From Arctopsyche grandis (lineage: Eukaryota; Arthropoda; Insecta; Trichoptera; Hydropsychidae): 64,000 nucleotides of DNA. Below are positions 9,519-63,666 of this stretch, piece after piece. A program made the translations under genes and the position numbers. The DNA is taken from the NCBI RefSeq assembly GCF_051622035.1, contig NC_135360.1, positions 32,629,206-32,693,205 on the forward strand, in the 5' to 3' direction. Below the pieces are notes generated by a model. That model was not told the origin of the DNA, ran no database searches, and saw only the letters and a list, made by a program, of their open reading frames with translations. How positions within the stretch are numbered: position 1 is the first letter of the stretch; each line of letters begins with the position of its first letter.

Positions 9519-9653
9519 CTAGAGGTAGGATAGTCACAGTGCTATCTATTGTTCCATTGTTGTAAATCCTTTGGAAAAAAGGTTCGGCAAACCTTTAACA
9601 ATGCATTTACAACCTTTGAACAATACACGGCCCCCTCAGGCTCCGGTGACTAG
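9519..9653 (+). mobile_element. Small MITE, 6-bp-TSD family, copy 3
   Basis: Same ends (CTAGAGGTAGGA..CCGGTGACTAG) and core as 5663-5808. Flanked by TTATCA on both sides (9513-9518 and 9654-9659). This independent target sequence supports a 6-bp duplication. Confidence 0.75.
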
Positions 9654-9659
9654 TTATCA

Positions 9660-29576: not shown

Positions 29577-29925
29577 TTGAATTACTGTAAATTTAAAAAA
29601 ATCGTTGCCACGGTGCAGTATGCTCGGCATAACGAGAAAAGACAGGAAGCAGAATACGTGGGTGATATAGTAAGGAGTTTGAAATGGCAATGGGCGGGCC
29701 ACGTGGCTAGAAGAATGGACGAAAGGTGGACAAAATCAATGCTAGAATGGTACTTGAGAGAATGTAAAAGGGCAATAGAAAGATCATAGGGAAGATGGGT
29801 AAACGGAATTAGGAAAATATGTGGGGTGGGATGGATGAGAGTTGCGCAAAACAGAGACTTCATCTTCAGAGGTCTTCATCCAGCAGTGAATGGTGAGTGG
29901 CTGTAGATGATGATGATTATACATT
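29577..29925 (+). mobile_element. RTE-type LINE 3' end
   Basis: It reads in frame as the usual RTE tail: WQWAGHVARRMDERWTK, MLEWYLRECKRA, a stop, then GRWVNGIRK and WMRVAQNRD. It ends in a TGATGATGAT tail at 29907-29917. It is 5'-truncated and mutated. The conserved WAGHVAR block makes the class assignment strong. Confidence 0.8.
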
Positions 29926-34200: not shown

Positions 34201-37200
34201 TGCATTTCATTTGCTGGGTCGACACGTGACAATACATTATTGTATGCGTGTTGACCCGAGATTAGATCGATTTCGGTTTATTTAAAAAGGCAATATATCT
34301 CTACATCTTTCCAGGTACAAGAGTACAAAGATTCACTGAAGACCAAAGCGGAACAGTTGATCACCAAAGTATTTCCGGCGAAAATAGTCGAACTCAACGA
34401 AATACTCGAAACGCCAAGTTTTCAAAATAGAAATTTCACCGATGTGCATCAGGTATTGTTTTCTTATATTTGTATGAGTTTGTTGTTTTATTTGATGAAT
34501 TTTAACATTTGTGCTTTCACTTTGCAGGAATTAAACATACCGGTACCACCAGCGGTGTCAGTTAATAGTAATAATTGTTCAGACGGTGTCCCACCGGCTA
34601 AGCGCTCCCGCGTGGACGATGATGCATCTGACGTTCCCGGAACTCGCGTCTACTCCTTGCCGAATGGATCTGTACCTTGCAATAAACCTCTTTGTGATCT
34701 TATACACATAGTTAAGCCGCGTATTCGCCAACTCGTCGAGGATTCCAATCTAGTATGTCAGCCTACGGTAACCATCTCCAGTACGAGTGTTACATTGTGT
34801 GTATTAATTTGTGTTCCGTTTGTCCCCTTAGTTAAAAATGTGGATTTCGTTCATGATACCTAAGATAGAAGACGGAAACAACTTTGGTGTGTCTATTCAA
34901 GAAGATACGCTCGCCGAAGTGCAGAGCGTCGAGTCCGAAGCGGCCGCTTTCTTCGATCAAATATCACGGTATTTCACATCGAGGGCGAAGATCATTTCGA
35001 AGGTCGCCAAATATCCGCATATTGAAGATTACCGACGCGCCGTTCAGGTAGTTTGAACTTTCGAGTGTCACTCGAAACATTTGGACGGTTTGTATCTTGA
35101 AAATTTACACTTTAAAGCAAATATTCACTTGTCAAATTAAACCAAACTATGTATAGTAGTTTGCCGTCTTCATTTTGGATGTCAGAAGATGGGAATGTCT
35201 CGACCCTCGGGCATGACGGAAGCGACGATGAAGATGTATAATATGCCATAAAGCATTAATAATTCAAGATTTTCTGATGATACACTATTCCAAGAGGAAT
35301 TGGTGGAACTTTTTCATCACCTGGAAGAGGAAAGCAATGGATCTGGACTGAAATTATGGTTATTAACAGAGTTGATGTTCTTCAAGATATGATGAACCTC
35401 TTGAATATGAAAAGAGCAAATCAGATGGTGTATTTGGGTTCTGCCATTTATGTCGACGGTAAAAGCACGAAAGAGGTTAAAAGAAGAATCCAGATGACTG
35501 GATCGAAAATGCCTCATCCGTCATCAATTTGTAAAGATCTTAGAATCTCGAGAACAGCAAAAATTTGTCTTGTCCAATCTCTAGTCTTCTCAGCAGTGGC
35601 GCCTTGTAAGAATTTACAGTGGCAGGGATGAATTGGACTGTAGTAGCTTGTTGATCATACTGTGACCGAATGCAAACAAAAATAGCATGCATGTGTAATA
35701 TATTGGGAGGGCTGCAGCCCCATGGGCTACATGGACGGCAAAAATAGCTTGCATATTTTATTTTATTATATACATATATACCAAGAAGGCCTAACAGGTA
35801 AACCCCAATGCGCCTGCCCAATTACAAACATTGCAGCATTTTTATTACATAAGTCGCTGAATTACGAGACATTGAAAACTCGAAATTAACGAGATATCTA
35901 TGATTTGTACATACTTTTTATTGTACATTAGCCATACTCAAATAGTGGTGACATAGTAGGTAGGAAGGTTTTTAGCCAATTCAATTGAGGAACCGTTTCA
36001 ACAACGAAATCAGAAAAATGGGCAAACTCTGATAGGAAACAATCGAACTGGAGCACAAATATCCAAATCTGACCAGCAGCGTTACAGATATATTCACAAT
36101 AAATTCTTTTCAATCGAGGTCAACTCACGGGATCGAATCCGGCGCCTCTTGGTGCTAGGCAAAAGTCCAACCACCGAGCCATGCTGCTGGCTAATGTACT
36201 ATAATAGGAGGGTTACAATTCTGAAGCCCATATGGGCGACAAAAATAGCTTGCATGTGTACTATACTGGGAGGGCTGCAGCCCCGCAGTCTCTAGTGCTC
36301 TTTTTATGGTGTGGAGACTCAGAAAGAGTGACAGGAAACGAATTGACTTTTTTGAGTTTTGGTGCTAGAGACTACTGAGTACATTGTACAATGGCTTCAG
36401 TACTTAAGAGCTGGATAGACTTTTCTGTTAGCTTTTCTGTTATGCAATTATTCTGCCGTATTGTTTGTAAAGAACTAGAATACTTGGAGAAATTAATAGT
36501 TCTATGCGGTATGAGTTACATTCAGTGGCGGCTCGTGAAAATTCATAGAAAATAATTGGGCTGTAGTACCGGTGATCAAATGCAGACAAAAATAGAATGC
36601 ATATGTACTCTCCTGGGAGGTCTACAGCCCTACAGCTCATATAGACGGCAAAAATAGCATGCATTTGTACTATACAGGGAGGTCTGTAGCTCCGCAGCAT
36701 ATACCCAGCAGCATAGCTCGGTCGTTCAGCTTCTGCCTAACACCAAGAGGCGCCGGGTTCTGTAGTTTCTGAGTATATCCGGTCGTTTCCTATCAGAGTT
36801 TGCCAATTTCTCTGATTTCATTGTTGAAACGGTTCCCGATTAAAAAATTGTCTAAAAACCTTCCTACCTACTATGTCACCACTATTTGAGTGTGATTAAT
36901 GTACAATAAAATTTATGTACAATTCATAGATGTCTCGTTAATTTGCGAGTTTTCAGTGTCTCTTAATTGAGCGACTTGGGTAATAAAAAATGCTTTGGGG
37001 TTTCCCTGTAAGTCTTTCCCTAAAATAAATAAATATAGACGAGCCGCCACTTGTTACATTATCTTTATATTATGATTTTATTTGGCTAGTGAATATTTAC
37101 TTGAAAGTGTCCATTTTCAGATTATTAATCGTCTAATTCGTTTCTAGCTTGTTTATACAATTGTATGTATTTGATTTTAATATGATTTTCTTTTTACTCT

Positions 37201-43380: not shown

Positions 43381-46300
43381 TTCTGATGATAACAACAATA
43401 TTTAATTTTTTATTTGTTTAATTTTTTGGGGGGGGGACACAAATTTTGGATTTGCACCCAGGCGCCAACTACCCTTAGAGCGGCCCTGAATCCAGTCTTG
43501 TTTCTGTTTTCATATTTCATTACAACACATTGGTTTCTTTTTAAAATAACATTTTTGGTATTACTTTAATTTAAATTATTAACATCCATTTCTTTGCAAA
43601 ACTATCTATTGAAATGTCAATGGGCAAAACATTATTAGAAAACAAAAACATATAAATCACAATATTGAAATATGGTTAATTATGTAGAGTAAATAATAAA
43701 ATAATTATTTCAATGCTGCTTTGAACTAAATATGTAGAGTGAATTGTATGTATATAGACCTTGACGGCTTATTGTCATTGCTCTATGTGCCAAATCTTTA
43801 GCTGAAACTACATATATATGTATGTATGTATGTATACTAACCTCTTGCAGCAACTTCCAACAACCAATTATCCAATTCGGTGGTATTATCTGGAATATTT
43901 GCCTGGATGGATACATCCCTGGCAGTACGATAGAGCTCGTCCCTGTAAGCTGGACTAACTCCAGCTTCGCGGACCAGTTGAAGAAGAGCACCTCGTCCGT
44001 GGGATCTGGCAGCTGCAAAGTGGAGCATCGATTGTCCATGCTCGTCCTACATATTAAAATTCAAATAAGATTTGCTAATTGGTCAAGTTTCATAAAACTG
44101 TAAGTGGTGCATACTCGATTGTCACTGCTAAAAGCTGCTTCTGGAGCTCCTGGAGTGTTAGGAGCTGGAGGAGTCGGTGGAACTGGATATTGTCCTTTAG
44201 GCGCGGTGAGATTTTGCGATGTAATCACTGCGTTTATAGGCTGATGATTTTGCTGATCTTCACCAGTCTCCTGTAGAAGTTCAGCAATCATTGTATAACC
44301 AAAAACAATAGCAGTCACATTATTTAAAACAGTTAATTTTGATCGTTACCTGTGTTTTCAATCTGGGTTTATTCTGATTGGCGAAGTTGTAGAGATAAGT
44401 GGCTAGAAAGGCGATAGGATCTTTGGGTCTCTGATTGGCCACTTCCGTCAATCCTTTAATGAGAGGGTCTCCAAGTGCTGTAAAGACATCCTGCACGTTA
44501 TCACTTGAAGAAGAACCGGCCATGTTTGCAAAACGATCGATCATAACAACGGACGCGCGCAAAAGTAAAACAGATCGTAATAATGGTTCGAATTTTTTCG
44601 TTAGGAAATTGTCCTCTGTAATTTTTTCGAGTGCTTATTACCGAAATCGACCTCGACAAACTTCCTAATCATACATTGACACGCGATAATCGACGTTATT
44701 TTAATCACAAAGTCTAAAATTGAACGAGCGAGTGTGCGGAAAAACGTGAGTCTTGCTTACACGAGGCGAGGTATCTGCCCTCTTCGGTCCTGAATATCGG
44801 TATATCCACTTGTCCGTTGTGCCCGTTGTTGGTAGGCTCTGAAAGAAGTTATCAATTATTCAAAAAAGCCACGTTTCAATCGATGACTACCAATACGCTA
44901 ACGTATCCTAAATCGATCGCCGTGACACGAATAGTAATTGAGCGGAGCTCAAAGGGTGGCTCGATTAAATAACATTCAGAGTTTTGGTTCTAAAAAAGCC
45001 AAAACCCAAGACTTAACAACCAATCTGAAATGCACTGCGTTAATTAGCATGAAAGTGTTGAGAAATCAAACTTAATCAATCAAATTAGTTGTATAACGAC
45101 CACTTTTTAGTCAAGTACATATAGGACTATTCACAAATATCTATTATTTTACTAAACATACATACTAGATTGTTATTAGAGCTCGTTTGTGGAAACTTGA
45201 GCTCTCCTGTAGTAGAAGCATATTAGTGCATGGGCAATTCGAGTGACGCAAACGAATGCAAAACTTTTAATGATACTTTATAATGGGTCTCTTTGAGGCC
45301 TTCATAATGGAAAGGACTCTTTTATTCTCAAGTGATCTTATATATTTGCTGCTATTTGAGTCCCATTGAAACAGCTGATCATCGAATATGCTACGGCCTA
45401 TTTGATCAGTGCCATCTGTTGATTAGTACTATTTTTTGTTTTGGATAAAATAGGAATCGTAGTTATCATTTTTTCATTGGCATAAAGCAGGGTTTACACA
45501 GTTTAAGAATAGAAAATGGATGAACGATAATTCACTCAATTTAAATCAAGTTTAACTGTTTCTAAATAAATTATGCAAGGGCAACCTTCGTTCGAATCGA
45601 TTTCTTAAAATTGAAAAGCTTTCAATGTGTTTGCTGAACTTTATTATTGTATTATGTAATAAGTTGAAAGCATAAAAGGAGAGTACACAAAAGGTTCATA
45701 AAACCCATACACGGAATAAACCTCTTTGAATTCGTTTATCTACCGTTTCAATCTGTGATCGTGTATCGGATCTTTATATGAATTAGTATGAAATTTGGTT
45801 TTATTTATGCGACAAAACAAAAACAAAACCGGAAGTTGACATGCGAGTACTGTAATTGATTTTTTATTATTTCAAATCGACTTCCGGGTATCGGAAAGTT
45901 CGTACATTAAAATTTTATCATAACTTCCTCAATTTAGTTCTCGTTTCGTTTAAACCAAACTATTAATGATGGTATATTTACACCTACATAGACTATAATA
46001 ACAGTGTAATTAAGGAAAATAAAACATTGCAAATCTACATTAAAACTGTGGGGTGTATTTTTTAGAGGTTTGTTTTTTTTGAATAAGCAGAAGATTTTTC
46101 AGCAACAGCCAATTTTACAATTGACAGCTGATATTTACTTAATTTGGTTTGCCATTTTACCATGACTAGACTTGCGCCAGAACAATGCTTGCAAATTGAA
46201 TTGCGCAAATTTATTTCGAAAGTATGTGAGACGATGGACGACTTGGAAGCCAACATTCGCCACGTTATTGCCGATATACGGCCCCAGCTGCTCGAAAAAG

Positions 46301-49300
46301 CGATCGAAAATTGAACTTTCAGATTGAGCATATGCCCGATATCATATTTAATTACTAATGGCATAATATTATCTTTAAATAAAGCTAATACCATGGCTAC
46401 TAACACGATTTTTATTTCATTTTAAAGTTCAATACCTCTAAAAAAAATACCCTTTATAAATAAGCACAAAGCATAGTGACAATTCATATCCAATACAAGG
46501 CCTGATCTCAGATTGTACAAAACATGTTAATCATTGCGACGACCTCGGTTTGGATGAATATCATCTGTATGTTTTAAATTTTTTGCATGAAAGCTTGCTA
46601 TTTGCAGATTAAGCATGATATGAAACTAAATGTCGATTTTCATGCAATGAAAACTCTGATTATTGTTCTGTGACCTTTGATTCAAAATCTTCTTATGCTA
46701 TGGTTAAAATGATTACTTTATTCAACAGAGTTTTTTTTTAAACTTCGTAAATCACGCAAAAGTTGAAAAATACATGTTTACTTTAGATTTTTTATAAAAA
46801 AACATAACATTTTTCTACTTTCAGCTGGTCAGAATGATTTAAAAAGACTTGATTAATATCGATTCTTCTTACGTACATCGGATACATTTACATTTCACTG
46901 ATTTTGATCCATGAATTACATCGAATTTGGTTCGGCGTGATTCAGTGAGCATATCTTATGGTCAAACACTGTGCCAACAAAACACGGAACAAATAAATTG
47001 AAAAAAACAGTAAAAAACCTTACGGCATACGAAAAATATGAACGACAAATCACAAAAGCTAATCTTAATCCAGGTACTGACCTATCTAAATGAATCCGAT
47101 GCTCTTGTAAGAAGTCCCTTGAAGATTCCCGTGCTATAGGGCTTTGTTTTCATATCCTAACTTTGACACTAATGAATCATTAAAGTAAAAGCTTCTTATG
47201 TACATACATATACTTAAAGTTACCAAACGAGTGTTCTAAAAACTAATATTTTTTCTTTTGTTTGTTTATGTTTAATGATTTGAATCCACCAAACTGCTGC
47301 GCTTCTTCCTAAAGATGTTCACAAACATTTCAGCAATGTGCATCGAATTTTGCATCGCCAAATCTTTTTCCAATTGCAAAATGTTTGAAACGGCTGTCGT
47401 ATAGTCGTAGAAGGATTGCAGTTCTGTAAGGCCCAAACTTTGATAGTTTCCAACTCGGATCATCTCTGGAGTCAGAGTTTCGCGATGGTTCAGACCTCTC
47501 ACAGTGCATATGTTCTTTAAATTCTCAGAATCTTTGCTCAGATATGGCACGTTTATAGTCATATTGATACGGAGGGAGTTACCCAAGAAACTGGGCCTGG
47601 CTGAAAGATGACCCAACTTTTCGTCCCATTTATATTTGAGCCTGTCTTCAAAGTGGATCATAGTTAGTGCTAGTATGGAATACGCTTTTCCAATTTCAGC
47701 TGGATTGTTGTGAGTTGTGCAAGTCATGACTCTGACATGATCTTGAACGTTGATCCAAACTGCCAAGTTGTGATTGTGTGTGATGAAAACTCCTCTTCCA
47801 TAAGGCCAGTGTTTTCCGTGAAGACGCTGATCATCATCTATCTCCTTGCTGTCACACAGTGGTATCAATAATCCAGATGCTGCTAAAATTGTCCTTATCT
47901 CTGATGGATTCTCCAAGACTTCGTTCATCGTGTAATACACTCCGATCTTTTCGTCTGGGTCTGGGTTTGTAGGAAAGAATAGTTTAGTAAAATCCTCACT
48001 GAGTACTATGTTGGTCAGAGCTTTTTCTACACACTCCAACTGTCCTATGTTCAAATTTAAAGGCAGTTCAAACTCATCAAGGTTTCTACTGCATTCTATA
48101 GTACCATTTAAGATGTAATTTCCAGGTGGGTCTAAATCTAGATTGATCGGTAAATAAGATGGTTGAAAATCAACTTCATCTTCTTTCTTAAGAGTGGTAG
48201 GGAGGAATAGAGATTCTGGATGCATTTGTAAGTCAGAATACATGTTGATACAATGTAAATCTTTGATTAGAGGTAAAAGAAATTCCTCAAATAGTGGGTA
48301 GGCGTAGTAGTCAGGTGCTACTATGCCTCCGTTGAAGTCTTCTTCGACAGCGTTTATAGCATTTTTATTGTTGGGTAGCTTTTTAACGGCTGGCCATATC
48401 ACGTCGAAGAGGTTGTGGTCAAGCTTAGTATATCTGTGCTTTATTCTGTCGAAGATAGGTCTGGTGAGGAACCTGCCCAAGAAGGACGAAGGTGGTCCTT
48501 CGTTGGCTGAAGCACTTGGAGGTGGTCTGTTGGCTGAACGAAGTCTATTATCTTGAAGAAGTTGGAAACATCGCTCCAGCAGTAGCAGAATATCTCCATC
48601 GGCCAGGTCCCTCCTCGATGACCATACGTCGTTGTTAACTAACATTTTATATACAAATTTTAATTTAATATCTACATATGTATGTATGCTCAAAGCGAAA
48701 TTGAGTCGGTCAGTATTTGTCAAATGTTTGATCAGTATTTGGCCTCAACTGTTCTTAATTCAGAAAATATTTGTAACTATCTGTTTATTGAAAAATGGAT
48801 ATCTAATTATATGATTCATTTTTTTGTAAAAGTTTTGACTACATTTTTCAAATTTGAAAGAAAAGATGACGGAGATTGGGTCATTGACGGATATCTTATA
48901 TGTAAATGTTGCCAATAGAACATTAGGTTACTTTTAGAGACTACTCCCATTTTAAACTATATCTAGGTTGATTTGGTAAGCACTTGCTTTACTGTGCTAA
49001 AAAAATCCGCTAGCCACTGTGCTGGACGCCAAGCGTCCAGTTAAATATGTGTGTTTTAAGCCAAAATAATTCAAAACCTGCAATGTTAATGATTGTAATT
49101 TGCCATAAAAATCATTTCATCATGGATCAAACTTCAATTTAGAAAAAAATAAGTGCAAGAAATATAACAAATAACGGCTGAAGCCGAGTCATCATTCCGA
49201 TATCACTCTTAAAATTACCGTTGAGCGCGGCGTACTGAATTTCCCCTCGCTCTCGCATATGTGATGCACGTATACAAGAGGTTTCCGACGAAAATAGTTA

Positions 49301-49734
49301 TTTATTTTGATATTGATCACTGTTTTTATTTCATAATGACATCATCCGAATCAAAGAGGTTTTGATGAGGAATACAAAAAAAATATGAAGACCCTGCATT
49401 CAGTACATTTGAAGAAATAAAATAAAATATAAATCCTGGTCACTCGTTATCCATCACAGGGCGGCAAGCTCTAATCTAATGCTACTTCTTAGTGTACTAT
49501 ATTACATATTTTCAAATAAAAATGCTTGGATCAGACAATGAGTCAGTTTCAGCTGTAATACTGAACAAATATTTAGACCACTTATACTGACCAAAAAAAT
49601 ATGTTAAGTATGCACATGAATAAGACGGCGAAAACAGTCAATGTCGTGAACCTACTCTCCTTCATTTCTCAATGGACACAATTTAATTACGATATAAAAT
49701 GGAAAACATGAAAAAAAACTTACCTGAAAACATT
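40072..49734 (-). CDS. Dpy-30 motif and ankyrin-repeat protein
   Basis: Eight exons: 49734-49725, 44838-44761, 44477-44350, 44270-44115, 44046-43842, 42460-42309, 42237-42013 and 40251-40072. Total 1,134 nt, 377 residues, all phases fit. Exon 1 is ten bases (ATGTTTTCAG before GTAAGT). The exon 2-3 junction rebuilds a Dpy-30 motif at about residues 22-60 (EEGRYLASSLGDPLIKGL, then PKDPIAFLATYLYNF). A Pro-rich linker and ankyrin-like repeats follow (MLHFAAARSHGRGALLQLV; CSLHIAVLAQQDELAEYI; RTALHYAMGADNVESLSRIL). The end KGRQPSYYFMNKSEILRL resembles the exon at 63666-63465. Dpy-30 motifs dock on helices in axonemal, AKAP and chromatin complexes, so a scaffold role is inferred. The first exon is the weak point. 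It lies within the last intron of the neighbouring gene, and exon 2 could also be joined from 49924. Confidence 0.75.
40398..41187. mobile_element. hAT-like MITE, CAGAGAAATG ends, copy 2, with nested copy
   Basis: Outer ends CAGAGAAATGTTATAATAAT and ATTATTATAACATATCTCTG. The interior is shared with 18985-19323 and enlarged by other DNA. A 48-bp derivative (CAGAGAAATGT..ACATTTCTCT, 40750-40797) is flanked by GGTGGC on both sides. It lies in the last intron of the Dpy-30/ankyrin gene. Confidence 0.6.
41331..41844. mobile_element. piggyBac-type MITE flanked by TTAA, copy 2
   Basis: TTAA at 41327-41330 and 41845-41848. Ends GAGGGCTGGACACC and GGTATCCAGCCCTT. Opposite in orientation to 7358-7973 and without its terminal duplication. 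Confidence 0.8.
42501..42730. mobile_element. Foldback MITE with ~97-bp arms
   Basis: GGGCTACAGACGCTCCGGAA at the left and its inverse at the right. The arms match over about 97 bp (including ACCCATGTTGACGCAGA and AGATTCGTCTTGAGGTCGA), with a spacer of about 30 bp. It begins 41 nt upstream of the 42460 exon, close to that exon's branch region. Confidence 0.75.
42890..43178 (-). repeat. SINE copy nested in the hAT-type element
   Basis: Reverse copy with CATCTATGGAGAATTTCATC, GATCAACCTGGAGTCACAAA and the head GGGATCGAACCCGACAAACT. Part of the body is deleted. Confidence 0.65.
43321..43376. repeat. AT dinucleotide microsatellite
   Basis: About 28 uninterrupted TA repeats inside an intron of the Dpy-30/ankyrin gene. 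Confidence 0.95.
44840..46049. other. Large intron 1 of the Dpy-30/ankyrin gene (left part)
   Basis: AT-rich sequence with no supported coding region or recognised repeat up to the mariner relic. It is also the 3' flank of the kinase-like gene. Confidence 0.4.
46050..46455 (+). mobile_element. mariner/Tc1-type element remnant
   Basis: Inverted ends GGGTGTATTTTTTAGAGGT and ACCTCTAAAAAAAATACCC. Plus-strand codons near 46165-46330 resemble the C-terminal end of a DDE_3/mariner transposase (VCETMDDLEANIRHVIADIR, then a stop after KAIEN). The catalytic part is deleted. The minus-strand frame over this stretch is an artefact. Confidence 0.55.
46456..47271. other. 3' flank of the kinase-like gene
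   Basis: AT-rich. No coding region is recognised. No clear AATAAA is seen close to the stop at 47272; an ATTAAA overlaps the stop region. Confidence 0.35.
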
Positions 49735-52700
49735 ATGCGATAGATTGAAAGCGAAAACGTTCAACAAAAAATCAAGTAGTGCAAATCACACGACATAAAC
49801 TGTTTTTGCCACAAAATAAATAATACATTGACAGTCTGAATGTCAAAGTATACTATCTAATACGTGCTTCGAAAAGCGAAAACTACTGTTATTACAACTA
49901 TAGCGTTCCACGTGCAATTATACCTTTGTCGTTGAGCATATCTTCCACGGTTGCCTCGTCTGCTCCGAAGTCCTTCAGCAACTCCTTGTGGGTCAAGTAC
50001 TTGTCGTTGTTCACGAACTCCTCTGGGGTGTGACCCTCCTATTGATATGAGAAAGCTTTGATTACAATTGGATTACAATTTCAACCTAATTGAATCAAAG
50101 CAGCACTCACGTCGTCTTGATCTTTTGGGTTAGCTCCCATGCTCTGCAGGAGATTGTAGTAATGACCGTTATCTTTCAGAACTGCAGAATAGTGCAGGGC
50201 TGTCCTGCCTTCGAAATCCACGGCCGAAAGTGTCTCTGGAAATCTAATTTAATCATATTTAATTTAAATAAGAGCAAAAAGAGCCATGATATATCGATTA
50301 CTGCATACGAATGAGATAAAATCGTCGCATGTTCGTATGACCCAGAACACGCGACACAGTATGTATGTTTAATGCGCAATACATTTTTTATCGCTATTAA
50401 GTTGCAAATTAAATGGTATAACGCTTAATAATGAATTGTGTTACACTTGAACAATTATTTTGCAGTTAAATGTTGATATTTTCAACTTAATAATGTCCGA
50501 ACTATGAAACTTTTAGCATTATGGTCCAAAATGAATCACCTTATTATGAATGAATATATATTTTTAATGAGAAATATATTTTTATTTTTTATTATTTGAA
50601 GTAAAATTTAAGAATATGTAAATTGTATTGAAATGATAAAAAATTAAAAATATTTTAAGTACACTTAAATTATTTACATAATATCACGACACTAATTACA
50701 AACGATAGGTGGGCCAAAAATGATCACTCTATTTACATTGACTATTACTTCGTTATTTTAAAATTGTTTTTCATTTTATTTAATTATAATTGAACAAAAT
50801 TAATTGAAAATATATGATATATTATAAAATATGCAGATATATGTATACCTGGCTGCTAAATAGCGTAAAATAGGAGTTTGTCCGAATATTACAGCAACGT
50901 GCAAAGGTGTAGCACCTCTAGGAGAACATCTATCTCTAGCGATTGCAAATTTGCGTCTGTCCAAAGCTGATTGAAGTTCTTTTAGACCTCCAGAACGAGC
51001 TGCCAAATGCACTCGTTTGATTTTGTTCTGCAAATTAAAATGCCATGTTAGAATTCTGAGATAAAAAGGCTAAAAATATGCTGAAAGAAATAAAAAAAAC
51101 AATACCATATAGGAAGGCACGTTGTCTAGAAAGGCTTGAAGTTCACCGTTTTGGGACATTTGTCCTACTAATCTCTCTCCTTCTCCGTTCAGCACCAAAG
51201 CGGCCAATTGCTCCATATTGCAAGTGTCGATTAGCATTTGAACTTCTTCGTCATCAACGTTTACGTCAGTCTGAAAATGACAAAGGTTTCAATAAGGAAG
51301 CAAGTCAAAATCTGAAAGGAGACACTTGAAGGAAGAAATAGATACCTAAATAGAAGTTACAGGGACTTCAAGCCAATTCGAAAAGAAGCTTACATTAAAT
51401 ACCCAGATCTTATCAATGACCAATGTGCAATAGTAACTACATACATATGTATATGATTCTCGAAAAAAGAAGTAATCACAATACTGAATACTTTATTATT
51501 TATACTATTTTGAATTACAAACATTTATTGAACTACAAGCACAGCATTTCTCAAAATTAAAATGTAAGTGCAAAAAGTGTGCTTCATACTTCACACAACT
51601 CCGTAAAAGTGCTATGTGTTAAATTTGAATATGAGAAGTACTGTGCTTTTTTTTTAACATCCAGGTATTTTTTAGCATTTAAACTACCTCATTTGTATAG
51701 CTAACTCCTTTTTGCTCAGCATCCAAAGAATCTACTTCAGGATCAGCATTGACTATTCCTTCAATGATTGATTCGCTTCCTTGCGAAAGGCGACCGGTAG
51801 AATCTTGAGCTTCTTAACAAAAATTTAAAAAAAGTTTAAGCTTAACCGAACCAAATTTCAGCTCGTTCGAACTATAAAAACATTTTTTTTTACCTGTGGG
51901 ACTGACGTGATTCTTCTTCATATTTTCAACATCTAAAACATCGGCAGTATCCGCCTTATGAAGTTCATCGTATTCAGATTCACTCTCCCCTCGAACATGT
52001 ACGTCATCGTCATCTTCAGATTCAGATTTGTTCAGGTTTTCAGGAGTTTTACTGTTCATCTCTTGTTCTTTATAATCGTCAACGTCTTCATCTTCGACTT
52101 GTGGTGCCTCGTTCTTCTTCTTTTCATCATCGGATTCGTGATCGAAATGGTTTCCATTGTGATGTATTTCATTCCGTTCTTTTTCTTCCAAAGCCTCTTT
52201 TTCTTTTTCTTTTACTTGCTCTTTTTCTTGTTCTACTTCTTGTTCTACTTCTTGTTCTTCTTCCTGTTCTTCTTCTTGTTCTTCTTCTTGTTCTTCGTCT
52301 TCTTCTTCTTCTTGAGACTCCTCATTGTTATTCTGTTCAACTTCTGGTTCTAGTTCAAGCATTCTAGGTGTAACGTTTGCCGTTTTAAGCCTGTCAACGG
52401 GCGTTGGAAATCTTTCTTCAACTTCGTAGCTTCTATCTAATTCATTATTCACACTTTTTTCAAACGCTTCTTCAGCTTCGGTTACATCCTATAAAAAAAG
52501 TTCTCGATTATCATGAATTTAACACATTCAATTAGAATTATACTAAAATGAAACTCCTAATCAAACGATTTCTATACTACTATGTATACTATTCGTTTTA
52601 TTAGTGCTCAAAGCTAATTTATAATTCGTTAATTTTTCACAACTATTCTATTCGAATGTATTATATTTACATATATATGTATAAAATTAAAACCTGTAAT

Positions 52701-54563
52701 ACAATCTCATGGAAGAACGTTCTGAGAACTCAATATTTGGAAAAAGAAGCTTTAATGTGTGCGCCTGTGGTTAATTTTAAATATGCAAAATTGGACTTGC
52801 ACAATTTCGAACACACGTGTAAATAATTTATGTATGACAGTACAGACGAGCCAAAATAAATCCACTTATTTTGTTTACATATGAACTTATATGTGCTTTT
52901 TAAAATCATTACCTTTGTTTCTAAATTGTTAATTAGTTTGAAATTAAAATGCGATACATTTAATTTCAAAAAATTAAAGCCAATACAAATAGGGTGATTA
53001 TTTATGGCCCGCCTCTCAAATAGGCATAATATTAGAAGCCGAGCAAAATTCTGCAATTGAACACACAGCTAAGAACTGAACTTAAAACAACATCCTCACA
53101 TTTTCGGATATCAGATCCCTTTCGAATTCGTTCTCCAAGTCCATCTGCTCTGTGTTATCATCGTAATGATCGCTATTTTCAACTACTAGCATGTCGTGAG
53201 TCATGACTTCAGGACTAATCGGCGTTTTCGGCCTGGGTTTTTCCAAGATTTTTGCAGTTAAAGCGTCTTCAGCAGCTTCATCGACTTCCGGTTGCACTTC
53301 TGGAATAGGCGTAGGTGTCTTCTTTTTAGCTCTCTTGAGTTCACCGATCGGTTTCAACAAATCCCAGTCCCAGGAATTTGGATATGTCACGGAAGCAATT
53401 CTGGGGGCGTCTGGTATGACCCCCAGAAGCGATTTGTCGAAATCTCCGGGTCTTGTCTTGTAATATCCTGCAGATTTCATTTTCTGAAACGGAATTCATC
53501 GATAAACAGTACCCAAATTATTTAGCGTCGATATGATTATCTAATTGGATAGTTACGTTGTCAAGTTTTCCTTCAGGAGCTCCATTTTCTAAAAGTAAAT
53601 TATAAGTCTCGTCGTCGTCTTTAGGCAATGCTGCCCAATGGAGAGGGGTTCTACCATCATTGTCTTGTATCGATGTAGCTTCTGGGTATCTGATTGCGAT
53701 GTGCTCGGCTATATTGGCATGTCCCATTCCAGCTGCCTATTTTAGATTACAAGACAATGATTTAAAGATTTATTTAATCCTTTTAAAATAAATAAAAAAA
53801 TGTATATAGGTATATATAGAGATGTACTTTATGAAGTGCTGTCATTCCGTTAATGTCCTTGCTCGATAGAATGACGGGAGGGACTGGGTCTTCTGTTAAA
53901 GATTTAACTTTTTCAAAATCATTTTCAATGACTGCTGTGTGAATTTCTTTGATGGTTCCCTAAAAGTCAATTGGAATTGTATAGTAATGAAATTAAATAA
54001 TTAGAATTACAATTCATAAGCCATAGCTTAGTGCACTTGTAGAGCTATTGCAAACCAGTAGATATATAGGTTGTGGCTTCAAGTCTCAGCCAAATACGTT
54101 GCTGGCGAGATCTTGTGTTTATTAAAACACTGATCGACCGTCTTCTGTTGGGATTTCCCAATTTTTCCCAATTAACCAATCTTAATTATTGAGACGGATT
54201 CAATAAATCATTATCTTCCCCTAAGTTTCTCGCAAATTCGAGTTATTAGCATCTAAAATTTGTTGAATCTTATAAAAGCTACCTACATAATGTATTTCTC
54301 ACAAGTTTTCTGTGTATCAAAAATTTGTTGATTGTCCATAGATGTCTCTATTTGTATTCTGTGTACTGTTATGTTTGTTATTGTTAGTATTTATTTATAA
54401 ATAATTCATCTAACCATATATGTATGTCGCCTTGTGGTTATTCTTGTCATGGCATGATGTATGTATTTAATAATAAAAAATGTGACTTTGGTTTGGGCAG
54501 AGCTGGGTATATTTACTAGATGTCAAGGTCAAATCATTTATATGTTCAAGTTTCCGAAGGATA

Positions 54564-54648
<85 letters not shown>

Positions 54649-57600
54649 GAATACATGAACACAAACAAAGGTGCTGAACATACTCGTATAATACTTTTCT
54701 ACAATGGTTACGAAGTATGGGAAAAAAGCGCCTGATTTTATGCAATGTATATTACATATACGACAAAGAGAAAATTCTTTTTGCATAAAAGAAGAAAATT
54801 AGGCGCAGTTAATGTTATACAATGAAAATATAATATTATACAATGTACATACATACATAAATACAATTTGTATATACACAATTTTAAAATAAAACAAATT
54901 TCTGATCACCAGAAATTCATAACTTCTGTATTTATTTTATTTCATAGAACATGAACACTCGCCTTTACAGATCGCTCCAAAGCGACGAGTGCACTTATAC
55001 AGATACAATAAAATAAATACACATACGCATTTTATACAATGCGAATTCATACAAATATGCACAGTGACATCTATGGAGGAAATTTTGCAGCATTTTATGA
55101 TTAAATTGGTGAACTTCAAGACGCTGAATAACTCGAGATTAGCAAGCGAGATAGGAAAGGAGATGCCAACTTTACAGGAACCGTTTCAATGAAAATCAGA
55201 AAAATTGGCAAACTCTGATAAGAAACAATCGAACTGGAGGCACAAACCAAGGTCTGGCCAGCAGCGGGACTCTAGTGGGACTCGAACCCGTGATCACTCT
55301 GCACGAAAGCATAATATGCTGTAATAATAAAGCATAATACGACAACATAATATGCTAATATATCAATACACATAAGCATTTTATACAGTGACATCAACAG
55401 TGACATATATGGAGAAATTTTTGCAGAATTTTATAATCAAATTGGTGAACTTCATGACGCTGAATTGTTTGAGATTAGCAAGCGCGATAGGAAAGGAGAT
55501 GCCAATTTTACAGGACCGTTTCAATGAAAATCAGAAAAATTGGCAAACTCTTATAAGAAACAATTGACCTGGAGTCACAAACCAAGGTCTGGCCAGCAGC
55601 GGGACTCTAGTGGGACTTGAACCCGTGACCACCCTGCTCGATAGCATAATATGCTGTAATAATAAAGCACAATACGAAAGCATAATATGCCGTACATATA
55701 ATATCCACGCCGCTGGTTATATATTATGGTTTATATACGTGGTCGAATTTTCTCACGAACAAAATAAAAATGAATTGTCATAATAAATAATCAAGTTACC
55801 ATAATGTGAGGTACTGCCTCGAGAAACCTCTTGACTGTAGATTGACTGGAGACCTCATTCCTAAGACGAGCACCTTCTCCTCTCCAAACGACCTGTTGGA
55901 GCCTTCCAAGATCGCGATCATGACACCAGATCCTGATGTTAGACGGCTTAATCACCAATTCAGCTGAAATTTAAATCAATAACGTAAAAACATGTAGGAC
56001 AAAATTTAAAAATTCATAACGAACCGGAAAATTGATCGACACGTGTCGTCGAACCCTCGCTCTAATTTCCTCGACTGTCTGTGTAAATAGCGTCCGGCTA
56101 GACATTACTTTTGTAAAAAAAATATACCGCAGACACTTAATGGCCTTTTATTTTATGTGTGTGTGTACATACATATGTTTACATTTATAAATAATTTAAT
56201 TTCTCAGAATATGTGCCTTCGTATATAATGTACGATCGATATTAAAACACACACACACACACGTACAATGAGAAATTGCTAATCGATAGTTACGTCGATG
56301 TAATATTCGGGAATTTTCCATTTTTTCGCCTTTTCCGATTATATGAGGCTATCATTATTGGTTGAAGTATATTTCGAACGTGTTGACGACACTTTCTGTG
56401 TTCAATTTTCACATTTGTCTTGATGTAACGATTCAATAAGCCACCGAATAATGTGGTTCGCGTGTTAAGCCACTTCTTAGCAAGTTGTGTGAAGGCAATA
56501 AGTGTTAGGCACGCTACCACGCTATCCTTTGTACTAGGGGAAAATTCTAATTTTCCCAAATTTTCCTATTTTGTCTCCCACATAAGAATAACTATGTAAG
56601 TTTTTTGTTTTGGCACTATAAAAGGAAATGTTCAACACTGAAGATATATTAAATCGAGTAAAAGTTTGAGAATCGAGGTATTGCTGACGTCAGATGTAAA
56701 GTTTTTAGCTTAAATATGGATAAGTTTTGTAAAATAGCGTATTTAAAAAATATTGCGTCAAATTTTGCCTCTAATGAAGGCCTTAGCTAAATTCACCTCA
56801 AGGACAAGACAAGTAAAAAATAAACGAAGTAGGAAAATCAACTGCGATTATACTACTTTTGAATAAAAATACACTCAATCGAAAATATAATGTAATAAAA
56901 AAAATATTTGCTCGAAATTAGGAAACAGATATCTGAGGTCGAATAAAAGGTTTTCTTTTGAAATAATAATATTTATTGTTTATAAATTAATAATAAAAAA
57001 AAACTCTTTTTACTCCGGAAAATTTCCATTTTTTTAAAATGAATATTGCATTAAAATTAATTTAAAAACTAAATTCAATTTCTGACTTTCTAACCAAACT
57101 TCCTAACCAATTAAAAGCATAGAAACATCTATGTACAAATTTGACAAACATTTCACAAAATTTTATATATCAACAAATTCGAGATGCTATAAACTCGATT
57201 TTTTGCTGTAGATAGAATAGGTAACCAATTTATTGGAACCGTTTCAATGAAATCAGATAAATTGGCAAACTCTAATAGGAAACGATCGACCTGGAGCTAC
57301 GAATCCAAGGTCTGACCAGCAGTACCGGGCCAGGGAATTAACCGTGACCACTAGGATGGAAGCATTACATTATGTTGCTAGCTAATTATATGAAAGAATC
57401 TGCCTTTCTTTTTGAAAGCTGAAAATTTTTTGTGGAATTCTTTTCTTTAGTATATTTATACGAACCTTTATATTTTTGGAAATGTCAAAAGTCCATTTTT
57501 TTTCATTTCGAGAAACATCTCGCAAAACATGAAATAAAATGATTTGCGTTTAACAATATTTAAAAATACGGGTGGCCTGTAATAGTACGTTTATTCGTTT

Positions 57601-60600
57601 CCAAGATTCTGGACATATCGAATTAAAATAAGTGATAGCAATTTGTGAATTATGTAGGTCAAACATGAATAGTGTTTTTGGAACTGAAAATTGTACATGC
57701 CGCTTTCAAATATTGTGACTCGTATATAAATTTTATTTATATAAATTATTTGAAATTTAAATACATAAAAAGGCATGGAAATTATTTTTGTATTTTTCTG
57801 AATTTATTTATGAACACGAAAATGAATATGGCATACCTGGAGTGGTGTGACCGGGTTTTGTACCTGAATTGTCATATAAAATAATTCTCGTAAACTACAT
57901 GACAACATTCACTAAACGCAATGTAATAATATAAGATATGTACACTGATATACAAAAGGTCTCCGTGAAAATAAATAAAAAATGGCTTTAATAACAATAT
58001 AAAGTTAATGCATTGCATTGGGTCTGACGAAGTTTAAGTATTCAATTTTGATTCATTCCAAAAAGGCATTGGAATGTCCGTATTTCAAAATAACTTTTAT
58101 TCATAATTGAGAGAAAAAGTGACCAATTCTGTATACAATTTGAGGAAAGTGATCAAATATGAGATAAAATCTTGGAATGTATGCATATTTTATACACTAT
58201 TTTATTAGAAGGTTGACACAAAGGATTGTTTTTCATACTACATATTTAGTATGGAAAATATGATCATATTTTCTAATTATTGGAAAAACGGTTTTTTTTT
58301 TCTAGAAAATAGTTCAAAATTCATTAGATACGTATATAAATAAAATGTGGATACATATTTTAAGAAATTTCAATTATTTTTTTAATAAATAACAAGCGTA
58401 CATACTCGCAATGATTTTATCTCGCAACGTATCAAGATTACACATACACTAGGTACATTCATTTACAAAAAAAATTTGGAAGACTATAAAATTAGCATAG
58501 AGGACAAAATTCAAATTTTCCTAAGGTCAAAGATTATCTCATAATTTTATGAAATCAAGACGAAAAAAAAGAAAACAATGGCTTTGGGCACGACGACGCC
58601 TTTTTACGCGAAAATTTATGTGAAGTTATACTTAAAATTTCGTAAAACACATAATCACGCAATATTACTCTGCAATTAATAACTTTGCTTTATTCAAATT
58701 CACACACACATACTCTAAATTACGATTGGAGATTACGATACATCTGATATTACAAATATAAATACACTCGATATTATCAAACGTGACACTTTATATGACA
58801 AAGTACTACTGTTTCTAACGCTCACTAGTAATTATGAATACATTGGAAAATATAATTATGACGAGCTTGTGTATTTGTGATAAGCTTTGCTACATGATAA
58901 GCTTTATTCTAAATATATGAATCAGATAAGAATACGATTGTGCCAAATCATGCAAAAGTAAGCGTGCTTTTATAATAATCCTACTGCATTGTTCATGTTG
59001 GATTTTTTGCACATTTTTACACACTAACAAATTTTAGATTTCCCACTATAAACATAGTGGAAAACGTGTATCGTATCAAGGGGTTGTTAAATAAAAAAAA
59101 TGATCAATTTTAAACAAATTTCTGAACCTACAAGCAATCAATTTATCTAGACAGAAATTTCAATAAAATTGGTGTTTTTCACATAGAATTTTTTTTAGAA
59201 CAGTTTTAACTTTTTTATTATTTTTTTAATAAAATAGACGATTAATAGTCAACTATTTTAGTTTAGTTGGATCGAATATGATTGGTTTTGAATGATTAAC
59301 AAGAATTCAAAGTCGCCGTTTAGTCAGAAGCTCCCATACAAAGCTCACAACGGCTATTTGTATGGCGGAAGCGATATTTTTAAAAAATCATCATTTTTTT
59401 CATGTTTCCGTTCTGATTTATAAAAGTAAAAGTTAACAAGAGCCTCCAACAGAGGTGTGTCTTTATTTAAAACACAAAATATGCCGTTAAAATCTACTAA
59501 TTTTATAAAATATACCCATCCAAAATGACAAAATGTCATATTTGCGTAAAAATACGACATTTTTGGCCTTGTTGTTATTACTTTTTGAATTTGTTCTACA
59601 AAATGTTGCATTGGAGTTGTAACTACGCATTTCTACCTCCTGAAATAGAATCCCCATAGTATAAGTATGAAAAGTTCCATCAAACACCAAGGTCAATGTT
59701 CAATTCGAGTTTTACTTATACAGGCTCAAGTCGAACCGCTCGTAGTTCCACAAAGTGGATAATTACATCGGTGAATGTGGAAATGTCGATCGGGAAAGTT
59801 GGCCGATGTTTTCATAATCGATTTCAGACATGTCGACCCGTCGCTTTTTGAATTATTAATCGCATGTACTGTAAAAATACGATCGAAACATATTGGAATG
59901 CTTCGAATGGGATCGAACGAATGGAAAGTTCGTCACCAATCAATCACTTCAATGACTGTTTTCGAATTGTGCATAAATCACGATGAAGTTTTCTTATATA
60001 TTAATAATTAATTTGAATTTTAATAATGTAGTATAATCCGCTAAATTGGGAAAAACTTTATTTAAAAAATAGTACAGGGTTGTATTTTCATTGTATAAAT
60101 AACTGAATGTGTTTAAAAAAAACCTCATTTTCAATTCCATAGTTTAAATATTAATAAATATTAAAAAAATATATACATGTGTACGGATTAATGGTTCTAA
60201 ATTGTGGCCACAAACCCACGAAAAGTATAAGAATACAAATTGATTATACTTTCTAATGAAATATTAAAGGAAATTGAGAAAAATTAGTGTATTTTCATTC
60301 ATAATCTTATCAGATTTAACTAATACCGCATTAAAATCTATACAATTGAAAAAAAATAGATTTCTTTTTTTTTTTAATTTAACTTGCAGGAAACCAAATG
60401 TTCTTCAATGCTGTCAAAAAAATTCTTGAAATGAAAATATAAGAGTAGGAATTGTCTATACTTCTAATGAAATCTAGAAAATTGGTCTATTTTTATTCAT
60501 AATGTAATCGAAATCAAAATATACTGCATTCAAATTTGTACAATTTTGATGAACGAACTTCTTTTTTAAAAACTTTAGCCTAAGAGTATTGTTTTTATGT

Positions 60601-61624
60601 TCGTCTTGCTTTTGACACCTATCTTTAAAATTAACATTATTGACATATACCTTTAATGTCTTATTATTAAACATATCAAACAAGGGGCATATTTTATAAA
60701 ACACACTGAAGAAAATTTCACGAAAGAACGACAATTTTAGATAAATATGTATGTATCTAGGTTTCCAATTAAGTTTGCTAACATTTACTATATAAAGCAT
60801 TATTATCTTTTACTTTATGATTTTGTTGACATACTTTATAAGATCTAAGAAATGATGTATAAAAGTTCATTGTTGAATTCCTAAATTTTTTTTAATATTA
60901 ATTTAAATGCAATCAAAATATTTAATTTACTTAGAAAGAGCATATATATCTAGATTTAAAATAAAGTATGCTAACATTTACGATATAAAGCATCTTTTAT
61001 ATTATGATTTTATTGACATATTGTTTAAGATTTAAGAAATTATGCATAAAAGTTCATTGTTGAATCCCTAAATATTTTTTTATATAAATTTAAATGCAAT
61101 CGAAATTGTTAATTTACTTAGACAGAGCATATGTATCAAGGTTTCCAATTAAGTTTGCTAATATTTACTATATAAAGCAATATTATCTTTTATATTATGA
61201 TTTTATTGACATATTTTATAAGATCTAAGAAATGATGTATAAAAGTTCATTGTTGAATTCTTAAATATATTTTTAAATCAATTTAAATGCAATCAAAATT
61301 GTTAATTTACTTAGAAAGAGCATAGATTTATTGAAAGGAAGCAAAAAAAAAAATTAACCAACATTTACAATTCAACAAACAACATTAACACGCTAAATAT
61401 CATCTTTCACAAAACAAAGAACAAATCAAAATTTCCCACAAAAACAACACTTTATCAATCAAAACTTCATATATACGTATGTATATTTCTAGACAAAGTG
61501 AAAACAAAAACCAATGAAAACAGACAAAAACGTAACTTTTAGCACAAAACTCACCATCACTCTTTTCGATAACGCGTCGCCTATTTTTCCTAAGAGTTTT
61601 CCTTTCGATCGGCACAGTCGTCAT
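47272..61624 (-). CDS. Ankyrin-repeat protein with C-terminal phosphagen-kinase-like (pseudoenzyme) domain
   Basis: Thirteen exons: 61624-61555, 56107-56021, 55963-55800, 53959-53828, 53736-53557, 53483-53100, 52488-51894, 51812-51688, 51270-51106, 51027-50849, 50243-50111, 50038-49924 and 48638-47272. Total 3,696 nt, 1,231 residues, all phases agree. Ankyrin module 1 is about 53-211 ([30 protein letters not shown]). A linker has a Glu/Gln-rich tract (about 390-440). Module 2 is about 580-776 ([30 protein letters not shown]). The last exon holds an arginine-kinase-like fold ([62 protein letters not shown]). Against arginine kinase, the catalytic NEEDHLR is NVQDHVR, the reactive Cys is Arg, and the Arg pair before CGRSL is T/E, so activity is unlikely. 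The first two exons are least certain. Confidence 0.8.
48639..49724. other. Intron region between kinase-like exon and Dpy-30 gene first exon
   Basis: No coding exon is seen. 49023-49041 holds a hairpin CTGGACGC-CAA-GCGTCCAG. 49740-49900 is the likely 5' UTR/promoter of the Dpy-30/ankyrin gene if its ten-base first exon is real. Confidence 0.35.
52190..52330 (-). repeat. GAA/GAG-rich coding repeat (Glu/Gln tract)
   Basis: Imperfect trinucleotide repeat within the 52488-51894 exon, encoding runs such as [20 protein letters not shown]. Its complement gives Leu/Phe-rich frames on the plus strand that are artefacts. Confidence 0.9.
54040..54375 (+). repeat. Diverged SINE copy
   Basis: Recognisable by the GCTTCAAGTCTCAGCC head, ACTGATCGACCGTCTTCTGT, and TTGATTGTCCATAGATGTCTC near the end. 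It lies in an intron of the kinase-like gene. Confidence 0.5.
54567..54642. repeat. AT dinucleotide microsatellite
   Basis: About 38 TA repeats. The Ile/Tyr-repeat frames that cross it on both strands are artefacts. Confidence 0.95.
55040..55325 (-). repeat. SINE copy, first of a tandem pair
   Basis: Reverse copy with GACATCTATGGAGGAAATTT, GGAACCGTTTCAATGAAAAT, GATAAGAAACAATCGAACTG and the head GTGGGACTCGAACCCGTGAT. Confidence 0.75.
55375..55650 (-). repeat. SINE copy, second of a tandem pair
   Basis: Closely similar to 55040-55325 and in the same direction, so probably a local duplication. The following AGCATAATATGCTGTAATAATAAAGCA spacer also repeats after both copies. Confidence 0.75.
56108..57139. 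other. Intron of the kinase-like gene, right part of exon 2
   Basis: A TATTTTTTTTACAAAAG acceptor precedes the 56107 exon. 56247-56262 is a CA microsatellite. The rest is AT-rich without a recognised feature. Confidence 0.35.
57140..57385 (-). repeat. SINE copy
   Basis: Reverse copy with GGAACCGTTTCAATGAAATC, GATCGACCTGGAGCTACGAA and a worn head. Confidence 0.65.
57390..60738. other. Long AT-rich intron, no gene recognised
   Basis: No supported coding frame. About 60190-60370 and 60371-60560 are a diverged tandem pair (ATTCATAATxTxATC..ACTGCATT). Short frames such as 59775-60011 show no family likeness. Confidence 0.4.
60739..61321 (+). repeat. Three tandem ~190-bp repeat units
   Basis: Units at about 60739-60942, 60943-61127 and 61128-61321. 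Each runs from GGTTTCCAATTAAGTTTGCT (or a variant) through AAAAGTTCATTGTTGAATxC to ATTTACTTAGAAAGAG. Units 1 and 3 are the closest pair. Confidence 0.75.
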
Positions 61625-63417: not shown

Positions 63418-63666
63418 TTACAATTTTTTTTTGTATGATTTTTTTTTTAATTTCAATGACTCACAGTTTAAAAGCTGCTCGCCGTTGCTGGGCGAGTTCG
63501 GGTTCGGCTTGGGCAAATCCAACAAGCTGATCCTGGTCAAGTAGTATGCTGGAGTGTGCTGACGAAGGTCCTGAGGAGCCCTCTCAGCACCAGCAGCAAT
63601 CAAGATGGACGCAACGCCTTCAGGATCTCCAGACATTGCAGCATAATGGAGCGGAGTACGACCATC
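63418..63666 (-). CDS. Exon of an upstream ankyrin-repeat gene (partial, enters from the right)
   Basis: The acceptor AATTTCAG precedes an exon starting at 63666 in phase 0. It encodes an ankyrin repeat DGRTPLHYAAMSGDPEGVAS, then a tail (QHTPAYYLTRISLLDLPKP) that parallels the last exon of the Dpy-30/ankyrin gene (RTALHYAM.., RQPSYYFMNKSEILRL). Read to the stop at 63418 it is a terminal exon. A strong internal donor T|GTGAGT at 63465 would instead allow splicing to 56107, also in frame. The terminal-exon reading is preferred because the paralogous exon is terminal and an AATAAA follows. The rest of the gene is outside the window. Confidence 0.7.
   Translation of the reverse strand, partial: DGRTPLHYAAMSGDPEGVASILIAAGAERAPQDLRQHTPAYYLTRISLLDLPKPNPNSPSNGEQLLNCESLKLKKKSYKKKL

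Follow-up and report, generated by a model that had tools for sequence, protein, structure and literature searches.

Phosphagen kinases are known as single or tandem enzymes, and the question raised by the locus described here is whether one of them has been joined to ankyrin repeats and, if so, whether it could still work as an enzyme. The window (the whole stretch of Arctopsyche grandis DNA that was analysed, 64,000 nucleotides in length) had been interpreted in an earlier note as encoding an ankyrin scaffold fused to a phosphagen-kinase-like domain. Of that interpretation, the kinase fold and, probably, the fusion survive, whereas the active kinase, the number of ankyrin modules and the start of the gene do not.

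The kinase-like exon and the ankyrin modules that precede it

The terminal exon of the locus (E12, Table 1) lies in a 490-codon open frame of the minus strand (47272-48744). Pfam places both domains of a phosphagen kinase in it, ATP-gua_Ptrans (PF00217; E = 4.6e-30, 105 bits against a curated cut-off of 22.4) and ATP-gua_PtransN (PF02807; 8.4e-10, 39.4 bits against 25.7), each above its cut-off both in E12 alone and in the joined model of 1367 aa introduced below. The profile search that had been proposed as a check thus finds both domains and, together with the PDB, where all 49 distinct sequences matching the exon at E<=0.01 are phosphagen or protein-arginine kinases, bears out the two-lobed arginine/creatine kinase fold claimed for it. 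As in arginine kinases (PDB 4bhl, 1m15, 4rf6, 4wo8), both domains are full length, E12 can be aligned from the N-terminal helix through the C-terminus, and the blocks WP.GRG, DH.R and GLTE are conserved. Unlike them, E12 carries insertions, a C-terminal extension and an apparent join to ankyrin modules, and it is only about 22-27% identical to the canonical arginine kinase of its own genome. An AlphaFold2 model of E12 was poor (pLDDT 38.7, pTM 0.38, the one helper row being part of the canonical kinase); arginine kinases came top when it was submitted to Foldseek (E = 8.8e-07), yet with a TM-score of 0.19, and we take this ranking to be mostly sequence signal and do not rely on it. A scan of viral contigs with E12 returned no relative: seven stretches fitted a pattern and none was confirmed.

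Twelve minus-strand exons running from 61624 to 47272 join into a single frame of 1202 aa with GT-AG at all junctions and no internal stops. The kinase part of this model starts at residue 748, and not at residues 778-1231 as had been given. The gene span proposed earlier, 47272..61624, holds in that its exon chain joins in frame, but the gene appears to be larger. Exon A3 joins E2 in frame with a phase fit equal to that of the exon 61624-61555, which is frame-compatible with E2, has no known homology and is doubtful as a first exon. We infer that A3 is spliced to E2 and that, further upstream, the gene probably continues with A3 and two exons outside the window; this extended model is the one of 1367 aa. 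An upstream start exon was sought and none was found.

Table 1. Features of the locus and of the neighbouring gene (coordinates on the scale of the window).
Feature	Coordinates	Strand	Remarks
Exons A1, A2 of module A	72923-72715, 69229-69074		outside the window (loci L003/L004)
Exon A3	63465..63666	-	last part of ankyrin module A (DGRTPLHYAA...); entered in phase 0, left in phase 1; Pfam Ank 2.6e-05
First exon of the earlier note (MTTVPIERK...)	61555..61624	-	alternative first exon or chance ORF; donor GTGAGT
Exon E2	55800..55963	-	cap, ankyrin module B
Exon E3	53828..53959	-	ankyrin module B
Exon E4	53557..53736	-	ankyrin module B
Exon E5	53100..53483	-	module B end and linker; open frame without Pfam match
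Exon E6	51894..52488	-	Glu/Asp-rich linker
Exon E7	51688..51812	-	linker; phase 1 in
Exon E8	51106..51270	-	cap, ankyrin module C
Exon E9	50849..51027	-	ankyrin module C; Ank_4 1.4e-05
Exon E10	50111..50243	-	ankyrin module C
Exon E11	49924..50038	-	module C end; phase 1 donor; coding signal stops at donor
Exon E12	47272..48638	-	phosphagen-kinase domain, full length but degenerate, with the stop codon
Pfam domains of E12	ATP-gua_PtransN ~48486-48262; ATP-gua_Ptrans ~47952-47362	-	
Neighbouring gene, exon D1	44350..44544	-	presumed start codon and Dpy-30 motif (~44475-44380)
Neighbouring gene, exons D2-D6	44270-44115, 44046-43842, 42460-42309, 42237-42013, 40251-40072	-	ankyrin module D

The Pfam scan covered four of the single open frames and, E8 included, the joined model in its entirety. 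In the latter, Ank_2 matched three stretches (1.4e-33, 115.7 bits, cut-off 27.3), and with profiles above cut-off the model counts as an ankyrin-repeat protein; among its Pfam matches at E<=0.1 there is no SOCS box, so that, as modelled, it does not qualify as a member of the ASB family. The ankyrin repeats read from the sequence are therefore present, in three related cap-plus-ankyrin modules (A, B and C, with A mostly outside the window) that precede the kinase rather than in two. The Glu-rich linker is there as described: the exon 52488-51894 encodes 199 aa, 38.7% of which are Asp or Glu.

Modules A, B and C have a non-ankyrin cap in common. Leave-one-out profiles recognize it at E-values of 0.0082 in A, 2.4e-07 in B and 5.8e-05 in C, the best of 155 generic ankyrin tiles scoring 1.2, 0.4 and 5.5, respectively. 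The ankyrin module of the neighbouring gene (D) aligns to A with 77.8 bits, to C with 63.2 and to B with 46.2. A control with 200 shuffles (best 23.9 bits) leaves generic ankyrin similarity possible, which the comparison with the 155 tiles (best 49.7 bits) covers. We rejected a common origin of D with A to C as a firm conclusion since D, although it aligns with A and C better than with any tile, does no better with B than with the tiles and is not recognized by the cap profile built from A to C (E = 4.2). In the genome, an exon-by-exon search with module A listed 45 places, which include generic ankyrins and one module B exon and no exon of C or D. The list obtained with module C as the query (E<=0.01) contains a module B exon (3.7e-05) but none from A or D. 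Searching exon by exon is thus a weak test.

The probable junction between the ankyrin modules and the kinase-like exon

The earlier statement that splice phases tie the kinase-like exon to the upstream exons holds for the in-frame GT-AG chain as a whole and for its last junction, 49924/48638, where the donor (GT) and the acceptor (AG) are both in phase 1. The donor of E11 scores 4.8 (left-one-out), the 18 donors of both genes, E11 included, spanning 0.8 to 9.2, and the acceptor of E12 scores 3.6, the 18 acceptors spanning -3.9 to 10.7. This acceptor has a poor pyrimidine tract, and of 70 AGs that were scored from 49900 to 48531, 11 exceed it. Because the open stretch ahead of E12 holds two phase-compatible AGs, agreement in phase is weak evidence by itself.

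Alternatively, the kinase-like exon could be a separate one-exon gene of 457 codons lying behind the ankyrin gene. An in-frame ATG in an A-rich context occurs at 48645, seven bases ahead of the first base of E12. If E11 is read through its donor, a stop follows after eight codons (GIIARGTL), and AATAAA is found downstream at 49330 and 49306, which would allow the ankyrin gene to terminate at this point. Drosophila has divergent stand-alone arginine kinase paralogues with expression in testis, which a separate E12 gene might resemble, and CG4546 is reported as essential for sperm development (PMC10224340). What speaks against a separate gene is, first, that the coding signal of E11, an exon included in the training set, ends at its donor, so E11 seems to splice on. 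Second, E12, which was left out of the training set, has the highest coding score (58.8) of those listed for the region from 39.9 to 50.1 kb, and, from the E11 donor to the Dpy-30 gene, it is the sole coding-like minus-strand stretch (score >9) among those listed, the one exception being a shorter ORF within E12 in a different frame. Third, the string TATATAAA ends directly at the ATG and would be too close to it to act as its TATA box. We therefore hold a separate gene to be rather improbable and infer, from the splice phases, splice-site scores and coding signal, that E11 is spliced to E12; the fusion of the ankyrin modules to the kinase-like exon is the best and, in our judgement, a likely reading.

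The active site of E12

In a pairwise alignment with one canonical kinase, numbered as in the Limulus enzyme, E12 has the changes R124T, R126E, E225Q, C271R and Y68V, and P or R, depending on the alignment, at E314; these six positions have catalytic or ligand-binding roles. The nucleotide-site arginines R229, R280 and R309 are retained, the register at R309 and E314 differing between the BLAST and MAFFT alignments. The phosphagen kinase signature, CP(S/T)N(I/L)GT (PMC7603314), is matched by the canonical arginine kinase of the genome and is absent from E12, which reads RPSFLGN. Neither by the signature nor by the catalytic and ligand residues does E12 belong with the active phosphagen kinases. 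With R124, R126, E225, C271 and Y68 replaced and the signature gone, the domain is very probably catalytically dead rather than a working enzyme. Assignment of E12 to the group 2 arginine kinases of insects was rejected as well, E12 being too divergent and devoid of the signature: TcAK1 and TcAK2, of insect groups 1 and 2, have the same fold but are 70.2% identical to each other and keep the signature and key residues (PMC7603314).

The proposal that a guanidino kinase has been placed in a large complex is thus unsupported where an active enzyme is meant. A working ankyrin-tethered arginine kinase supplying ATP locally would agree with the complete two-domain fold and the three retained arginines, but the losses listed above and the presence of a canonical arginine kinase in the same genome make it very improbable. 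Marginally less probable still is a decayed arginine kinase retrocopy, i.e., a pseudogene caught in the ankyrin gene: E12 is a single exon whereas the canonical gene has an apparent intron near codon 56, like TcAK1 of Tribolium (PMC7603314), and catalytic residues are lost, but free decay would presumably not leave 455 codons open at so low an identity, and the conserved blocks are as in a fold under selection.

A putative scaffold, its neighbour and its meaning

The best overall explanation, to which we assign a probability of about 0.5, is that the product of the locus is a large scaffold protein in which modules A, B and C, the last two separated by an acidic spacer, would be followed by a C-terminal domain of phosphagen-kinase fold, very probably catalytically dead. 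Through its ankyrin array the protein would bind its partners, and the kinase-shaped tail might be a docking or nucleotide-sensing part that pairs, for example, with a real arginine kinase or another subunit. A precedent in trans is ASB9, the ankyrin repeats of which bind creatine kinase; ASB9 and creatine kinase B (PMC7280518) are two separate proteins and ASB9 is a SOCS-box ubiquitin-ligase substrate receptor, while here the kinase part is, in our model, in the same chain. No report of a fusion of ankyrin repeats to a phosphagen or arginine kinase was found among the matches listed for open-licence literature, and the architecture may already sit in automatic annotations. To annotate the gene from its domains as an arginine kinase would probably be a mistake.

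The next gene downstream (model of 370 aa) combines a Dpy-30 motif (PF05186, 1.7e-13), for which the genome has three matches at E<=0.01, with ankyrin repeats; the PDB Dpy-30 chains that it matches are DYDC1 and NME5 (9fqr) and DYDC2 (8j07). The same architecture is found in C. elegans ARCP-1, a ciliary scaffold that localises PDE-1 to cilia (PMC6953435; arginine or creatine kinase is mentioned nowhere in the text searched), and the neighbour by analogy hints at a ciliary scaffold. This link is an indirect one: the ankyrin-kinase model itself contains no Dpy-30 or RIIa motif, which a ciliary or radial-spoke scaffold would carry in the same protein, its cap does not extend to module D, and the genome search with module A brought up no exon of D. 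Its location in a cilium or sperm flagellum is only suggested, by the neighbour and by phosphagen kinases known in flagella, such as Trypanosoma brucei AK3, an arginine kinase targeted there by extra sequence; unlike here, that extra part is a short N-terminal insertion, and "ankyrin" does not occur in the text describing it (PMC4517888). A pseudo-phosphagen kinase with a structural or nucleotide-sensing role in an axonemal ankyrin scaffold of sperm or chordotonal cilia, encoded beside a radial-spoke-type Dpy-30/ankyrin gene, is a tentative idea that we consider unlikely as a whole.

Since the tail has lost its active-site residues, the ankyrin-kinase protein probably works, as judged from its sequence, as a structural or regulatory part and not as an energy enzyme. 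If this is true, the phosphagen kinase family would include a pseudoenzyme with a scaffold role, a dead copy joined to ankyrin modules, and the pairing of ASB9 with creatine kinase would have a counterpart in cis. If the protein resides in the flagellum, it would offer a handle on how the phosphoarginine system is organised in arthropod sperm.

The kinase-like exon and its active site

The earlier note had assigned an arginine/creatine-kinase-type fold to the terminal exon, E12 (47272-48638), and this assignment was borne out. The 490-codon open frame on the minus strand that contains E12 (47272-48744) matches both ATP-gua_Ptrans (4.6e-30) and ATP-gua_PtransN (8.4e-10) of Pfam above the curated cut-offs, and the distinct sequences found with it in a PDB sequence search at E<=0.01 are without exception (49/49) named as phosphagen or protein-arginine kinases. 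A genome search at E<=0.001 found ATP-gua_Ptrans at only 2 places, the E12 locus and an ordinary arginine kinase on contig C1 (the canonical kinase), with which E12 can be aligned throughout, N-terminal helix and C-terminus included (BLAST identity 22% over 387 columns; 26.5% over 343 aligned residues with MAFFT). The canonical gene has an apparent intron near codon 56 and E12 has no intron, which would fit an old retrocopy or an intron loss; a passage on TcAK1 of Tribolium likewise describes an intron near codon 56 (PMC7603314). An open frame upstream of the canonical gene, without a Pfam match at E<=0.1, may serve as an alternative first exon, whose start would be N-myristoylation-like (see the table). 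Judged by the appearance of its canonical kinase, the animal is probably an insect.

Judged from the sequence, the phosphate-binding and the guanidine-binding sides of E12 are both damaged. Compared with the canonical kinase in the alignment, and in what we take to be the Limulus numbering, E12 carries the substitutions R124->T, R126->E, E224->V, E225->Q, C271->R, N274->F and Y68->V, the E314 position is occupied by P or by R according to which alignment is used, and R229, R280 and R309 are retained. The sequence CP(S/T)N(I/L)GT, which the same passage on Tribolium gives as the signature of the phosphagen kinase family (PMC7603314), is absent from E12 and present in the canonical kinase of this genome.

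Extent of the ankyrin gene and its probable junction with E12

The proposal that the kinase exon is spliced to minus-strand exons between 47272 and 61624 that carry two ankyrin modules and a Glu-rich linker holds as a reading frame: 12 exons, from 61624 to 47272, are joined without an internal stop and with GT-AG at every junction into 1202 aa, with the kinase starting at residue 748 and phase 1 at both donor and acceptor of the junction 49924/48638. The proposed limits are probably too narrow: the gene appears to extend further upstream, and instead of two ankyrin modules there are very likely three. The window corresponds to C6:32629206-32693205 of an assembly of 475.7 Mb in 189 contigs, and the extension covered eight 10-kb stretches at or beyond its right edge, adding 78.8 kb. 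Two exons of module A (A1 and A2) lie there, upstream of E2, and a third (A3) lies at the window edge; A1 through E12 form a 1367-aa open frame without a start exon. Because A3 joins E2 in frame, exon 61624-61555 can be read either as an alternative first exon of the gene or as an ORF that is open by chance.

Modules A, B and C have a non-ankyrin cap in common, recognized by profiles built without the tested module at 0.0082 (A), 2.4e-07 (B) and 5.8e-05 (C); six generic ankyrin ORFs of this genome, cut into 155 control tiles, gave best values of 1.2, 0.4 and 5.5, respectively. Since its match is better than that of every generic tile, module A is very likely, by this profile comparison, a true third copy. 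No fourth copy was found among open frames of at least 25 aa in the added 78.8 kb, where two weak matches had E 0.037 (a simple repeat) and 2.5.

We put the probability that E12 is fused to the ankyrin gene at about 0.75, a figure that is a judgement. In favor of the fusion, the E11 coding signal ends at the E11 donor, and the coding score of E12 (58.8, untrained on E12) is the highest among the stretches listed at 39.9-50.1 kb; in the interval from E11 to the downstream gene, the minus-strand scores >9 belong to E12 and to one shorter ORF inside it in another frame. The E11 donor (4.8) and the E12 acceptor (3.6) fall within the ranges of the 18 donors and 18 acceptors used (0.8 to 9.2 and -3.9 to 10.7, respectively). 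Taken by itself, the matching phase counts for little, since the stretch that is open as far as E12 has two phase-compatible AGs. Against the fusion, there is an in-frame ATG at 48645, the E12 acceptor has a weak pyrimidine tract and is outscored by 11/70 AGs scored in and around the E11-E12 intron, and the ankyrin gene may end 8 codons past the E11 donor, with poly(A) signals further downstream. The E11 donor (49924, phase 1) is also phase-compatible with exon D4 (42460) of the downstream Dpy-30/ankyrin gene, and a read-through transcript that skips the kinase exon is thus formally possible.

Neighboring features

The downstream gene model combines a Dpy-30 motif (1.7e-13), listed at three places in the genome search, with ankyrin repeats (Ank_2, 1.6e-10). 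Its Dpy-30 segment matches the PDB chains of DPY30 domain-containing protein 1 (E 0.0002) and NME5 (E 0.0061), both in 9fqr, and of DPY30 domain-containing protein 2 in 8j07 (E 0.0041), which we take to be radial-spoke parts. Its ankyrin part, module D, is closer to A and C than to generic ankyrin ORFs, which is not so for B; the cap profile does not recognize the A-C cap in it, and a genome search with module A has no exon of this gene, and none of C, among the matches listed. Kinship of module D with A-C thus appears likely from these comparisons.

Coordinates of features in and around the window (window positions unless a stretch is named)
Feature	Position	Strand	Remarks
Module A, exon A1	72923-72715 (window scale)		beyond window
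Module A, exon A2	69229-69074 (window scale)		beyond window
Module A, exon A3	63666-63465		window edge; phase 1 end, GTGAGT donor, in frame with E2
Dpy-30/ankyrin gene, six-exon model	44544-40072	minus	370 aa; about 2.7 kb downstream of E12
Pyridoxamine 5'-phosphate oxidase gene exons	26858-27340	+	PNPOx_N 1.8e-08 for 26858-27088; 27188-27340 presumably the second piece
Fragment, presumably similar to the reverse transcriptase C-terminus of a non-LTR retrotransposon	29631-29762	+	
Exon-like text, presumably of proteasome activator PA28 gamma (PSME3)	34255-35350	+	55-aa piece 34582-34746 without Pfam match at E<=0.1
SINE-like element copies (CCAGGTCGATCGTTTCTTATCAGAGTTTGCCAATTT and variants; by eye)	about 62450-62330, 57345-57230, 55620-55490, 55265-55160	minus	introns and flank
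Long AT dinucleotide run	about 54650-54567		intron E2-E3
Open frame with MGGCTSKDKDIKTIEG	L011 (stretch around the canonical kinase) 7109-7477 (C1:39597109-39597477)	minus	upstream of the canonical kinase
552-codon open tandem repeat (NGIKESYGYPRDQNIAEA...)	L006 (stretch beyond the right end) 8191-9846	minus	some 37 kb to the right of the window; three weak Pfam matches, apparently spurious

Possible role of the putative fusion protein

The literature matches listed contain no published account of an ankyrin-phosphagen kinase fusion. The folds are known and their combination may be new as far as the literature was searched; prior automatic annotation in animal protein databases is conceivable. 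Ankyrin arrays serve in protein binding. The ankyrin protein ASB9, according to a passage in one report, binds the creatine kinase dimer and inserts an Asp into the basic active-site pocket (PMC7280518). An excerpt on ARCP-1 of C. elegans, which has ankyrin and DPY-30 parts as does the neighbor gene, describes how it brings PDE-1 to sensory cilia (PMC6953435). Two arginine kinases are reported at high abundance in Culex sperm (PMC9934393), enzymes including adenylate kinases are described as reduced in Tetrahymena radial-spoke mutants and said to act with arginine kinase(s) (PMC12399478), and a text on trypanosomes refers to an arginine kinase of the flagellum (PMC4517888). In view of these last three reports, a flagellar location of the putative fusion protein would be plausible. 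Unlike in the ASB9-creatine kinase pair, the ankyrin and kinase folds would here be parts of one chain with the kinase part dead, and because of this arrangement the role of the kinase part may be that of a docking face or a nucleotide sensor.
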